Positions 5,429 through 10,235 of a stretch of DNA of 64,000 nt are shown in pieces; position 1 is the stretch's first letter; each line of letters begins with the position of its first letter. A program made the position numbers and the translations under genes. The notes beneath the pieces were generated by a model. That model was not told the origin of the DNA. It made no database searches and saw only the letters and a program-made list of their open reading frames with translations. Location: assembly GCF_021582895.2 (NCBI RefSeq), contig NZ_CP091139.2:2046001-2110000 (forward strand). The letters run 5' to 3'. This DNA is from Microbacterium elymi. GTDB taxonomy: Bacteria > Actinomycetota > Actinomycetes > Actinomycetales > Microbacteriaceae.

Positions 5429-7531
5429 TCAGAAGAGCCGGTCCGCCTCGACGGCGCGGCCGCGCGACGTCGTGACGACCCCGACCCGGGCCGCCGCGGC
5501 CGACGGGGCCGATGGCCGGCGCGGCGGATCGTCCTCTTCGGCGTGGCCGCCGAGCCCGTGCACGCGCAGCAGGGGCCGGACCCGCTTGTTCAGCCAGGTG
5601 CGATACCCCTTCGGCGCGTAGGCGGAGGCGCCCGGGTACAGCCCGCGATACGACGACACGAGCTCGGGATGCTCGCGCTCGAGCCACTGCAGGAACCACT
5701 GCTTCGCTCCGGGCCGCAGGTGCAGCGCGCCGAAGACCACGCGCACCGCTCCGGCGGCCCTGATCCGGGACAACGCGTCATCGAGCTGCGGGATGGAGTC
5801 GGTCAGGTGCGGCAGGATCGGCATCAGGAACACCGTCACCGCGAACCCGGCGTCGGTCGCCGCCCGCACCGTCTGCAGCCGCGCCGTCGCGGTCGGAGTC
5901 CCCGGCTCGATCGAGTGCTGCAGGGCGTCGTCGAACACCGCGATCGACATCGCCAGCGAGACGCGCACGCGGGACGCGGCGTCGGTCAGGATCGGCAGGT
6001 CGCGGCGCAGGAGCGACCCCTTCGTGAGGATCGAGAACGGCGTGCCCGAGTCGGCCAGCGCGGCGATGATGTCCGGCATCAGCCGGTACCGGCCCTCGGC
6101 GCGCTGGTACGGATCGGTGTTGGTGCCGAGCATGACCGGCTCGCGTGCCCAGCTGCCGCGGGCCAACTCGCGCCGCAGCACCTCGGCGACGTTCACCTTC
6201 ACCACGATCTGCGAGTCGAAGTCGTGCCCGGCGTCCAGGTCGAGGTACTCGTGCGTGCCTCGAGCGAAGCAGTTGTGGCTCACGACACCGTTCGCGATGA
6301 AGTCTCCCGTTCCGGTCGTGATGTCGACCATGTCGATGGTGGTGCCGAGATCCTCGATGCTGACGATGCGAAGGTCGGCGACGGACTTCAGCGCAGTACC
6401 GATGATGCCCATCTTGCGGGTGATGGCTGGGTGAACGAGGTGGAAGAAGCGCTGTCGCACTGGCAAGCCACCCACGGTCCGCACGACATGGACGCCGTTC
6501 GGGCGGGGTGGTTCTCGAACGAACGGAATGTCATGCGTGGTGAACGCTTCCTCCAGCAGCCGGAGATAGTCCGCGTCCTTGTTGAAGATCCGAAGCACTC
6601 CCCGAGAGCAGGAACCTTCGGCGTCGAAGGCCCCCGCAAGGAACCCTGCATACCATGCGGCATTCGTCCTGAGTGGGGTGGCGATGAGTGCGGAAATGCG
6701 CGCGACGTCGCGTTGCTTCGCGGTGTGGATAGCGGTGAGCTCGCGGCGAACCACCGTTGCCGGCGTGAATGGGCGCGTGTACGTCTGTACATCCTCCGCA
6801 AGCAACATGAGGCGGACGCGGTCCAGCGCTTCGACATCCGTCAGGGCAAGACGGAACCTGTGGACAGGGCGTACCCGAACGCCGTCATCGTACGTCTTGT
6901 GGAAGATCATGCCGTCACCGCGGATCATTCCGGCGAGATATCCACGCCGGTAATCCGAGCTCGACTCGTCGGCTCCGACCGTCGCCGCCATGCCGAAGCC
7001 GAGGAGCCGGTTGCGCGTGGTGAGGTAAGGGCGCCGGCCACTCCCACTCATCGCGCCGCTCACGTGCTTCCAACCTCGCTCAGTCAAGAAGCGATGGTCG
7101 CCACTCGCGACCAGTACCGTGCCGTCAGCGAGTGTGATTCGGAACGCACGCTTGCGCGTGGACCACTTCGCCTTCACTTGGGTGCGGACGTAGCGGCGAT
7201 AGTCGCCTTCACTCTGGGTGCCGATGATCTCGTCGCCGACCCGCAAATCGGCGATCGGGCGCTGTCGTCCATCGGCCATCAGGACGAGGGTGTCTGGTGA
7301 CAAGCAGTATGCACAGGCATGGCTGCATCCCCGATACGGATTGACGGTCCAGTCGAACGGCATGGCCGACATGCCGGGCACGCGGTTGAGGGCGCTCTTG
7401 GCCATCACCTCGTGGAATGTCATGCCGGCGAAGTCGGGCGTGGTCACCGAGCGGACGAACCCGTCCATGCGGTCGAGGCCGGGCAGCGCGGCGGCGTCCA
7501 CCGCACCCAGTTCCTGACCCTGCCACCGCAT
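5429..7531 (-). CDS. Rv2578c-family radical SAM protein interrupted by an intein
   Basis: A 700-residue precursor whose spliced form would be 355 residues. The host protein resembles actinobacterial Rv2578c-type radical SAM proteins (SplB-like COG1533), whose substrate is unknown. The cluster-binding CxxxCxxC reads GCSHACAYC at residues 68-76. Downstream blocks include LGTNTDPYQRAEGRYRL and SILTKGSLLRRD. The intein occupies residues 76-420, so the third cysteine of the mature motif must come from Cys421. ATG 7531 is preceded by GGGAG. No internal break is seen, unlike many neighbours. The gene is divergent from the carboxypeptidase gene. Confidence 0.9.
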   Translation of the reverse strand: MRWQGQELGAVDAAALPGLDRMDGFVRSVTTPDFAGMTFHEVMAKSALNRVPGMSAMPFDWTVNPYRGCSHACAYCLSPDTLVLMADGRQRPIADLRVGDEIIGTQSEGDYRRYVRTQVKAKWSTRKRAFRITLADGTVLVASGDHRFLTERGWKHVSGAMSGSGRRPYLTTRNRLLGFGMAATVGADESSSDYRRGYLAGMIRGDGMIFHKTYDDGVRVRPVHRFRLALTDVEALDRVRLMLLAEDVQTYTRPFTPATVVRRELTAIHTAKQRDVARISALIATPLRTNAAWYAGFLAGAFDAEGSCSRGVLRIFNKDADYLRLLEEAFTTHDIPFVREPPRPNGVHVVRTVGGLPVRQRFFHLVHPAITRKMGIIGTALKSVADLRIVSIEDLGTTIDMVDITTGTGDFIANGVVSHNCFARGTHEYLDLDAGHDFDSQIVVKVNVAEVLRRELARGSWAREPVMLGTNTDPYQRAEGRYRLMPDIIAALADSGTPFSILTKGSLLRRDLPILTDAASRVRVSLAMSIAVFDDALQHSIEPGTPTATARLQTVRAATDAGFAVTVFLMPILPHLTDSIPQLDDALSRIRAAGAVRVVFGALHLRPGAKQWFLQWLEREHPELVSSYRGLYPGASAYAPKGYRTWLNKRVRPLLRVHGLGGHAEEDDPPRRPSAPSAAAARVGVVTTSRGRAVEADRLF
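6272..7306 (-). mobile_element. Intein with LAGLIDADG homing endonuclease in the radical SAM gene
   Basis: A 345-residue protein intron begins with Cys (CLSPDTLVLMADG, block A) and ends VVSHN before the +1 Cys of CFARGTHEYL. Block B has SGDH where TxxH is usual. The two dodecapeptide motifs of a LAGLIDADG endonuclease are LAGMIRGDG (precursor residues 199-207) and LAGAFDAEG (298-306). Block F reads VDITTGTGDFIANG. All splicing nucleophiles (Cys1, penultimate His, terminal Asn, +1 Cys) are present, so splicing should work. Base composition is visibly lower in GC than the flanking exteins, which supports acquisition by transfer. Homing activity is inferred from intact motifs. Confidence 0.92.
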
Positions 7532-7639: not shown

Positions 7640-8901
7640 GTGACGGTTCCCGACCCGCACGACCCCCCGATCGATCGTGCCCCGATGACGCGGCGTGCGC
7701 TGCGCGCCGCGCACGAGAGGGCGGATGCTGCGGCCGAGACGCCGACTGCTCCGATTCCGATCGTCTCAGCCGGTTCCGACACCCCGTCGCATCCACCGAT
7801 CTTCAAGCCGCCGCCCCCGCCGCTGCGCGCGCAGACCGCGCCCGTCCGCACGCGTCCGGTGCCGCTGATCGCCATGCGCCCCGCCGAGGCGAGCCGGCCC
7901 CGGCACGCCCGGCGCCCCCGGCACCGCGTGGCAGCCCGGGTGGCGATGGCTGCGGCATCCCTCCTCGTCATCGGCGGCGGGGGAGCCGCCGGCGCCCTCG
8001 CGCTGAGCCCCGGCCCCGCCGACGAGCCGATCTCGGCAACCGCAGACATCACCGCCTCGAAGCTCCTGGCTGCCCCGACCGAGACCGCCGCCCAGGCCCC
8101 GACCTCTGCCGCCCGCACGCCGAGCCCCATCACCGGTCAGGTCGACGGGACCGTCGCCGCCCCGGCATCCCTCGCCCTGTGCGAGACCCCGAGCTTCACC
8201 AAAGCCCTCGCCGCGCACGACGATGTCGCCGCGATCGCGGCGGCCGGCGGCGGCGAACGGTTCCGCACGGCGGTCGTCGACGGGCAGGCGCCGTGCGTGT
8301 CGTTGTCCGACCCGACCCGGTTGTGGACCGTGGTCGACAAGACCCGACCGTTCGAGCCGGTCGACTACACGCCGTCGCCCGTGCGGGGGCCCGTCGACGT
8401 GCGCAGGCATCGAGGGTGACGGGCTGCGGGCGGATGCCGCGACCGCCCTGACCCGGATGGTGAAGGCGGCGAAATCCGACGGCGCCGGCGAGATCGCGTT
8501 GGAGAGCGGGTATCGCTCGTACAAGACGCAGGCAGAGTTCCTACGGGCAGCAGGTCCGGATGCGGGGGACGGCGAAGGCCGACCTGGTCAGCGCGCGCCC
8601 CGGGTACAGCGAGCACCAGTCCGGGCTCGCGGGTGACCTCGTGCCGTGCGACGGCGGCACCTGCGGCACGCTCGATGACCTGGCCGGGACGCCGCAGGGC
8701 GACTGGATCGTCGACCACGCGTGGCAGTACGGCTGGATCATCCGCTACGAGAAGGGCCACACCGACGTCTCGGGCTATCTGCCCGAGCCGTGGCACCTGC
8801 GCTACATCGGCATCGACTTGGCGAAGGCTTACCACGACGGCGGCTGCCACACGCTCGAGGAGTTCTTCGACCTGCCGGCGGCGCCCGACTACGCGGGCTG
8901 A
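7640..8901 (+). CDS. Membrane-anchored VanY-type D-alanyl-D-alanine carboxypeptidase
   Basis: Peptidase of the VanY/M15B family, expected to trim terminal D-Ala from cell-wall stem peptides. About 95 basic and proline-rich cytoplasmic residues precede one membrane helix (around residues 100-122, VAMAAASLLVIGGGG). The extracellular domain carries SGYRSYKTQ, the zinc motif SEHQSGLAGD (His-x6-Asp) and PWHLRYIG. Breaks lie at about 8405 (GCAGC to GCAGGC) and about 8540. GTG 7640 or ATG 7631 are both possible starts. It is transcribed divergently from the radical SAM gene, and nothing suggests a vancomycin resistance cluster. Confidence 0.85.
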
Positions 8902-9072: not shown

Positions 9073-10235
9073 ATGGACCGGGAGATCTACGACGAGGACC
9101 ACGAGGCGTTCCGCGACGTCGTCAAGGAGTTCATCAAGCGCTACGCCACGAACGAGAAGCGCGAGCAGTGGGATGCCGACGGTGAGATCGACCGGGCGAC
9201 GATGCTCGCCGCGGGCGAGGCCGGGATCATCGGCCTGTCGGTCCCGGAGGAGTTCGGCGGCGCCGGGATGCTGCAGGACTACCGCTTCCGGGCGATCGTG
9301 CTCGAAGAGACCATCCAGTCCGGCAACGGCTCGCTGGCCGGCGCGTTCGGCATCCAGGACGACCTCGCAGTGCCCTACCTGGTGCACATGGGCACCGACG
9401 CGCAGAAGCAGAAGTGGCTGCCGAAGATGGCCACCGGCGAGGTGCTCGGCGCGCTCGCGATGACCGAGCCGGGCGCGGGCTCGGACCTGCGCGGCATCAA
9501 GACCACCGCCAAGAAGGTCGACGGCGGCTACCTCGTCAACGGCGCGAAGACGTTCATCTCCAGCGGCAAGACCGCCGATGTCGTCGTGACGTTCGTCAAG
9601 ACGGGCGAGGGCAATCGCCCGGACGCGTTCAGCCTCGTCCTGATCGAGGACGGGATGGAGGGCTTCGATCACGGCAAGAAGCTGAACAAGGTGGGCTTCC
9701 ACGGCTGGGACACCGCCGAGCTCAGCTTCACCGATGTGTTCGTGCCGGAGGAGAACCTGATCGGCGGCGTCGAGGGCAAGGGCTTCATCCAGCTGATGAT
9801 GAACCTGCCGCTGGAGCGGCTGTCGATCGGCGTCGCGGCCGCGGCTGCCGGCGAGGCCGCGCTGAAGTGGACGCTGGACTACACGCTGAGCCGGGATGCG
9901 TTCGGCAGCCGGTCGCGGACTTCCAGAACACCCGGTTCGCGCTGGCCGACATGGCGACCACGGTCGACGTGATGTGGGCGTACATCGATCGTGCGATGCT
10001 GCTCTACAAGGACCGCAAGCTCACGCCGGAGGAGGCCGCGAAGGTCAAGTTCTGGGCCACTGAGCGCGAATGGGAGCTGCTGGACCTGGGCGTGCAGCTG
10101 CACGGCGGGTACGGCTACATGCTCGAGTACCCGATCGCCCGCGCCTGGACCGACGCGCGCGTCCACCGCATCTACGGCGGTACGAACGAGGTCATGCGCG
10201 AGATCGTCGCGCGTCAGGTGACCGGCCGCAAGTAG
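9073..10235 (+). CDS. Acyl-CoA dehydrogenase
   Basis: FAD flavoprotein that introduces a trans-2,3 double bond into acyl-CoA in beta-oxidation or branched-chain catabolism. It has the family's usual length of about 387 residues. Recognisable blocks are AMTEPGAGSDLRG (FAD and substrate binding), FHGWDTAELSF, and the C-terminal GGYGYMLEYPIARAWTDARV followed by YGGTNEVMREI. A single break near 9910 (one C lost beside GCAGC; AFGQPVADFQNTRF on repair) splits the helical C-terminal domain. ATG 9073 is the natural start. The minus-strand TetR gene begins 10 bases after its stop, so the two are convergent. Chain-length preference cannot be read from sequence. Confidence 0.88.

Follow-up and report, generated by a model that had tools for sequence, protein, structure and literature searches.

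Does an intein that interrupts the iron-sulfur motif of a radical SAM enzyme act there as a redox- or iron-sensitive switch, or is the motif only a favorable landing place? The locus that raises this question lies in a 64,000-nt window of Microbacterium elymi (contig NZ_CP091139.2, positions 2,046,001 to 2,110,000), in which an ORF with an ATG start and no internal stops encodes the precursor (Table 1). The precursor matches the NCBIfam model NF038136, "intein-containing Rv2578c family radical SAM protein," with 806 bits (cut-off 700; E = 2.3e-242) over precursor residues 1-660 and model positions 1-573 of 574, and the model of the Rv2578c family itself, NF038135, with 498.7 bits (cut-off 430). 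Pfam Radical_SAM (PF04055) scores 45.1 bits (cut-off 29.5), its best stretch lying within the C-extein. The CxxxCxxC motif required in the radical SAM superfamily is formed after splicing or, before it, by way of the intein's Cys1, and family membership predicts that the protein binds a [4Fe-4S] cluster and cleaves SAM. Judged by sequence, the protein is a member of the already catalogued family NF038136 (rSAM_Rv_intein), with which it shares host family, intein, and site without essential difference; this model was curated for intein-containing Rv2578c proteins, which agrees with the initial annotation that such proteins are known. No published work on Rv2578c-family inteins was found in a literature that covers few subscription journals, and at the level of titles, with the same coverage, no paper dealing with both inteins and radical SAM enzymes concerned the Rv2578c family.

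Table 1. Features of the intein-containing gene, in window positions.
Feature	Position	Strand	Basis
Whole precursor ORF, 700 aa	5429..7531	(-)	Rv2578c-family radical SAM protein with intein
N-extein, residues 1-75, ends ...NPYRGCSHACAY	7307..7531	(-)	sequence, alignment, site reading
Cys69 codon, first cluster cysteine (-7)	7325..7327	(-)	invariant column
Cys73 codon, second cluster cysteine (-3), possible Cys1 disulfide partner	7313..7315	(-)	invariant column; MoaA precedent
Intein, residues 76-420 (345 aa), CLSPDTLV...ANGVVSHN	6272..7306	(-)	relatives with the same boundaries
Intein Cys1 codon (residue 76), predicted splicing nucleophile at third cluster position	7304..7306	(-)	invariant 19/19
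Intein block B (name presumed), SGDH, intein residues 68-71	7094..7105	(-)	Ser68 and His71 invariant 19/19
First LAGLIDADG-type motif, GYLAGMIRGDG	6911..6943	(-)	sequence; absent from mini-inteins
Second LAGLIDADG-type motif, GFLAGAFDAEG	6614..6646	(-)	sequence, LAGLIDADG_3
Intein His344-Asn345, C-terminal splice junction	6272..6277	(-)	invariant 19/19
Cys421 codon (+1), third cluster cysteine once spliced	6269..6271	(-)	invariant column
C-extein, residues 421-700 and stop, begins CFARGTHEYL	5429..6271	(-)	sequence, alignment; Radical_SAM Pfam

The cysteines of GCSHACAYC in the precursor are residues 69, 73, and 76, and the intein begins at residue 76 with CLSPDTLVLMADG; at its other end, residues 419-421 read His-Asn-Cys, followed by FARGTHEYL, and Asn420 is the final intein residue. 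When 31 proteins are aligned, 19 carrying the intein and 12 lacking it, C69, C73, and C421 are among the invariant columns; the intein is therefore exactly 345 aa long. The insertion site was inspected at 50 loci, of which 29 are empty; in all 21 intein-bearing loci the insertion is in phase 0 and directly before the third-cysteine codon. Within the genus, 18 alleles, along with the window and G106, were read at the sequence level, and the other alleles were classed by match span. The coordinates given in the initial annotation, 6272-7306, proved exact to the base, and its statement that Cys1 holds the third cluster position before splicing and a +1 cysteine, Cys421, afterward is borne out by the sequence and the alignment. 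Its point that splicing and cluster binding have one cysteine position in common is likewise supported, by Cys76 and Cys421, and the comparison it called for, of Rv2578c proteins with and without the intein, yielded the same codon across the 50 loci. Chance or wrongly set boundaries were considered as well and are ruled out by the empty alleles at the same codon and by the E value of the NF038136 match.

Class 1 cis-splicing inteins carry Cys, Ser, or Thr at position 1, a block B His, a penultimate His, a terminal Asn, and Cys, Ser, or Thr at +1. The window intein has C1, H71, H344, N345, and a +1 Cys, and Cys1, Ser68, His71, His344, and Asn345 are invariant in the 19 inteins compared; the SGDH stretch is presumably block B. 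The N-terminal intein model TIGR01445 scores 25.7 bits against the precursor (cut-off 24.5). Against a splicing intein count the C-terminal model TIGR01443 (13.8 bits) and Pfam Intein_splicing (24.7 bits), both under their cut-offs of 15.6 and 35.8. The intein has two LAGLIDADG motifs, Pfam LAGLIDADG_3 scores 23.1 bits (cut-off 22.5), and the best fold matches are the intein endonucleases TliVMA, PI-PfuI, and PI-SceI, together with I-DmoI; sequence and predicted fold thus point to a homing endonuclease. The AlphaFold model of the precursor has a mean pLDDT of 75 and a pTM of 0.45, with residues 67-73 and 422-444 below 50. Additional cysteines of the intein itself were rejected as a conserved switch: besides Cys1, the sole recurring one belongs to a GSC stretch located at LAGLIDADG motif two, and it is present in 12 of 12 full-length inteins but missing from five mini-inteins and from L224 and L227.

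We therefore put the probability at about 0.88 that the gene, a member of the Rv2578c family, carries a class 1 cis-splicing LAGLIDADG homing intein that removes itself and restores the motif. Before splicing, the intein would break the cluster-binding loop behind its second cysteine and so leave the precursor inactive. Splicing would run through a thioester at Cys1, transfer to Cys421, and cyclization of Asn345, joining Tyr75 to Cys421 and giving back GCSHACAYCFAR, so that the [4Fe-4S] cluster could be built. In a reducing cytosol splicing is probably constitutive; a Cys73-Cys76 disulfide, or iron or a cluster at Cys69, Cys73, and Cys76, could retard it, a side effect of where the intein sits. 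Two things would account for the persistence of the intein: the endonuclease could spread it to alleles that lack it, and the site tolerates no loss but a precise one. Splicing and its rate, endonuclease activity, homing, and the inactivity of the precursor are all points that we infer from sequence.

The quality of the assembly bears on whether the element might instead be the leftover of an intein in a gene that no longer functions, or an artefact. The genome is 68% complete, and in the window an acyl-CoA dehydrogenase-like frame and a peptidase-like frame (9073-10235 and 8223-8901 (+)) each run on in another frame that overlaps the first; the breaks look like single-base indels, and the names were given by eye. 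Such probable frameshifts, together with the completeness, suggest an error-rich assembly, and in G707, one of the full-intein alleles of the genus, a TAG occurs within the copy. Despite this, the ORF that carries the intein is itself open for 700 aa, the splicing and radical SAM landmarks are present, and the same arrangement recurs in other assemblies, which makes decay or artefact highly improbable.

The distribution among relatives is that of a sporadic element. The gene is present in 38 of the 39 genomes of the genus, and by match span seven of these alleles (G707 among them) hold a full intein, two a mini-intein, 28 none, and one a partial match. In a sample of 299 genomes of the window's taxonomic family, 17 pass the NF038136 cut-off; five of these 17 inteins are mini-inteins of 156-162 aa that lack the endonuclease and have intact splicing residues. 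Full and mini forms coexist within genera (L006/L013 in g55, L012/L014/L016 in g3, and L008/L015 in g58). Over 19 sequences, mean identity is 59.7% for the intein and 64.1% for the host (r = 0.62), which suggests that the two have diverged about equally, and recent horizontal spread is unsupported by the trees because those of intein and host have several pairs in common (L008/L015, L001/L011, L003/L005, and L006/L013). At the second cluster cysteine, HQC occurs in 9 of 29 empty alleles and in none of 21 intein-bearing ones, which have H[A/S/G]C (raw counts that ignore kinship); this contrast is perhaps a difference in the homing site. Sequence comparison establishes, at its own level, the site, the intact splicing residues, the sporadic distribution, and the fact that several hosts have lost the endonuclease.

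Related inteins occupy the same cysteine in other hosts. A profile of 19 Rv2578c/PA0069-type inteins, here called lineage A, was run on L069, the intein of a SPASM-type maturase-like protein, and on 76 other inteins of the window's phylum; it gave 155.8 bits for L069 and at best 44.7 for the others. The junctions of L069 read CNLRCRY/C...HN/CFVYKL (slashes mark the splice points). The family name of its host is used loosely because the best NCBIfam match, PapB, reaches 94.2 bits against a cut-off of 340. With a 15-row, intein-only alignment (A2), we then searched 396 genomes of the phylum at E up to 1e-10 and obtained matches in 37. Taking one match per genome, all 37 N-terminal junctions immediately precede the third cysteine in a three-cysteine motif, and the +1 Cys is present in 36, the remaining locus (L273) being interrupted by a contig end; the 37 matches are non-independent, representing mostly one allele. 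By motif, 35 of the hosts are Rv2578c-like or PA0069-like. Seven of these were scanned with profiles: three score above the PA0069 cut-off, and in the other four the top model is NF038136 (three above cut-off), with NF038135 at 407-427 bits, just under its 430. The two further hosts are a DUF5131 protein (L275; 318.2 bits) and a QueE (L312:2401-3393 (-); TIGR03365, 309.2 bits, cut-off 206.1). The QueE intein begins with Ser (GCDYRCSW/SVTC...SRN/CDS, boundary set by comparison with other inteins), so the third cluster cysteine is missing from its position in the precursor, and a disulfide between Cys-3 and Cys1 is impossible. A plasmid of Streptomyces sp. P9-2B-2 holds a further intein-containing DUF5131 copy (GCDRVSKGCDN/C...HN/CYA). 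Outside radical SAM enzymes, Virus Rctr197k carries an intein that is 27.9% identical to that of the window over its full length; its junction, KFMQRY/C...KN/CEGH, has no cluster motif, and the only non-intein Pfam match of its host is SNF2-related at 21.7 bits, under the cut-off of 24.9. When viral contigs were scanned for inteins, no relative turned up.

A second set of inteins was found at the third cysteine with a DNA pattern for that junction, scanned over genome contigs. It returned at least 118 stretches; among those listed, 31 are intein-like by eye (17 of 80 and 14 of 38), both intein ends being readable in 21 (11 and 10), and the other 87 are, by eye, ordinary MoaA-like proteins or chance matches. 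Because the pattern covers the third cysteine alone, the scan shows recurrence rather than preference. Most of the intein-like stretches listed belong, by motif, to AmmeMemoRadiSam-system (AmrS-type) hosts, from bacteria and from genomes labelled archaea (L110, L146). Of the seven such hosts scanned, six exceed the TIGR04337 cut-off (L039, L046, L082, L108, L125, and L146) and L110 falls below it. A second host group, with FFSWCNLRCVF/C, comprises L049, L061, L068, and L114, and L068 scores 42.5 bits for Radical_SAM. We assign to a lineage B, in AmrS-type hosts and another radical SAM group, the third-cysteine inteins of L039, L046, L049, L061, L062, L068, L072, L082, L108, L110, L114, L117, L120, L124, L129, L137, L138, and L146; they are mostly 421-465 aa long (L138, 313 aa), with a mini form of 175 aa in L125. 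At E up to 10 the profiles of lineages A and B give no cross-matches, L069 being counted as A; that of lineage B also matches two inteins outside radical SAM enzymes (83.8 and 77.3 bits).

The Tes-intein model NF045703 (rSAM_Tes_intein; Tes is tetraether lipid synthase), whose name implies a radical SAM host, fits lineage B and not the window intein: it matches six of six lineage B proteins scanned and L146, and does not match the mini-intein L125. In five of the six, Cys1 falls at about model position 156 in the best stretch, with the three-cysteine motif directly before it, as read from the model alone. In the 396 genomes of the window's phylum, the lineage B profile gave partial matches alone, most of them in the model's second half. 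By tblastn, none of 18 phage records reached 80% coverage of a lineage B intein; of 128 plasmid records, a single one (Annamia dubia, H28) was covered in full, at 22.3% identity. Neither lineage accommodates L130:123-1808 (-) well (22.7 and 16.5 bits for the A and B profiles); this 155-aa mini-intein occupies the third cluster cysteine in a host of SPASM type (Radical_SAM 30.3 bits and SPASM 21.8 bits, both barely over cut-off). Among the matches listed in a general intein survey, of which 78 were read (30 loci and 48 other listed rows with an open frame of up to 1000 aa), two hosts are radical SAM enzymes, recognized by eye from the N-extein, and both have the intein at the third cysteine.

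This recurrence of the third cysteine across hosts and at least two intein lineages is, on sequence grounds, the most useful new element of the analysis. The hosts include Rv2578c, PA0069, DUF5131, QueE, SPASM-type maturase-like, and AmrS-type proteins, in bacteria and archaea. A probable explanation is site preference without regulation, cluster chemistry being irrelevant in the cell: the third cysteine would be used repeatedly because a +1 Cys, Ser, or Thr is needed, because the motif DNA is highly conserved, and because inteins jump between related motifs. The mostly similar motif sequences of the lineage A hosts, the HQC contrast, such as a homing target might give (kinship ignored), the tolerated Ser1 of L312, and the related intein in a viral protein that lacks a cluster motif all fit this explanation. 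It leaves unexplained why the first two cluster cysteines, also valid +1 residues, were not found in use; such use was detectable only by the intein-only queries and the general survey, in which a single allele or other hosts predominate.

The enzyme MoaA belongs to the radical SAM superfamily. Its Pyrococcus abyssi form contains an intein; according to two reviews that attribute the finding to Callahan 2011, oxidizing conditions stop splicing at its first step through a disulfide that ties Cys1 to a cysteine of the N-extein (PMC10663303), the pair being Cys-3 and Cys1 (PMC3922620). The window precursor has this arrangement, with Cys73 at -3 and Cys76 as Cys1; its host family differs from MoaA, and the two are likened by the cysteine positions given in those reviews rather than by sequence. 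By analogy, regulation of the kind proposed for the window intein has been reported before for another enzyme of this superfamily, and the view of the initial annotation that regulation through the cluster position is not established gives way to the reported MoaA trap (PMC10663303, PMC3922620). The chemistry to which that annotation points is sound in principle, and redox sensitivity of the window intein could be chemically built in, which we infer from this likeness. SufB and DnaB, for their part, are not radical SAM enzymes. The mycobacterial inteins in these two proteins have been proposed to be stress-responsive or extein-regulated (PMC8891592, PMC6195587), SufB being an iron-sulfur assembly protein, and they are likened to the window intein by description.

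A stronger proposal is that the intein is kept as a switch: a Cys73-Cys76 disulfide, or iron or a cluster at Cys69, Cys73, and Cys76, would sequester Cys1 in the precursor, and splicing, with it enzyme activity, would be released only under reducing conditions. Such gating as a selected function appears unlikely to us. The precursor does retain the complete CxxxCxxC spacing, with the Cys-3/Cys1 separation reported to control splicing of P. abyssi MoaA; two lineages whose profiles do not cross-match (E up to 10) share the third-cysteine site in several radical SAM families; and inteins that have lost the endonuclease retain their splicing residues. However, the conservation of Cys73 says nothing about regulation because the cluster needs this residue anyway, the QueE relative with Ser1 would escape a Cys-3/Cys1 trap, and the intein is missing in 28 of the 38 genus members that have the gene, so a switch would be dispensable. 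Moreover, the motif loop, residues 67-73, is modeled at a pLDDT below 50 and so does not support a site already formed before splicing, and the viral relative lies outside any cluster motif.

The intein in the Rv2578c-family gene is, taken singly, a catalogued allele, and its value lies in comparison. In its broadest form the idea would be that the third cysteine is a general landing place for inteins and, in the majority that have Cys1, a mutually exclusive switch between cluster and splicing; we regard this combination as doubtful. Cysteines engaged by a disulfide, iron, or a cluster would lock splicing, whereas a free Cys1 would lead to an apo-enzyme ready for its cluster, and, if true, the maturation of a whole group of oxygen-sensitive enzymes would be confined to reducing cells. 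Because the site recurs, the switch hypothesis could be tested on natural variants, the mini-intein, empty, and Ser1 versions serving as controls, and the redox trap of MoaA would thereby pass from one archaeal example to a question for common bacterial genes.

Several records from mobile elements may be added. Beyond the viral relative described above, the remaining 117 phage records match the intein in part, and 14 of the 15 listed are Mycobacterium phage terminases; L249, a relative on a plasmid of Haloferax, is a frame of 331 aa that lacks an N-extein. The DUF5131 gene with its intein on the Streptomyces plasmid (L248:1327-3171 (+)) has no gene in the plasmid's (incomplete) table, and it adjoins a gene for the three-Cys-motif partner protein TcmP. 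Finally, L247 (KX853510.1, 19211-22480) is annotated as a "radical SAM protein-like protein" and has, outside its intein, only a weak SNF2-related match; by this sequence evidence, the annotation probably derives from the intein.
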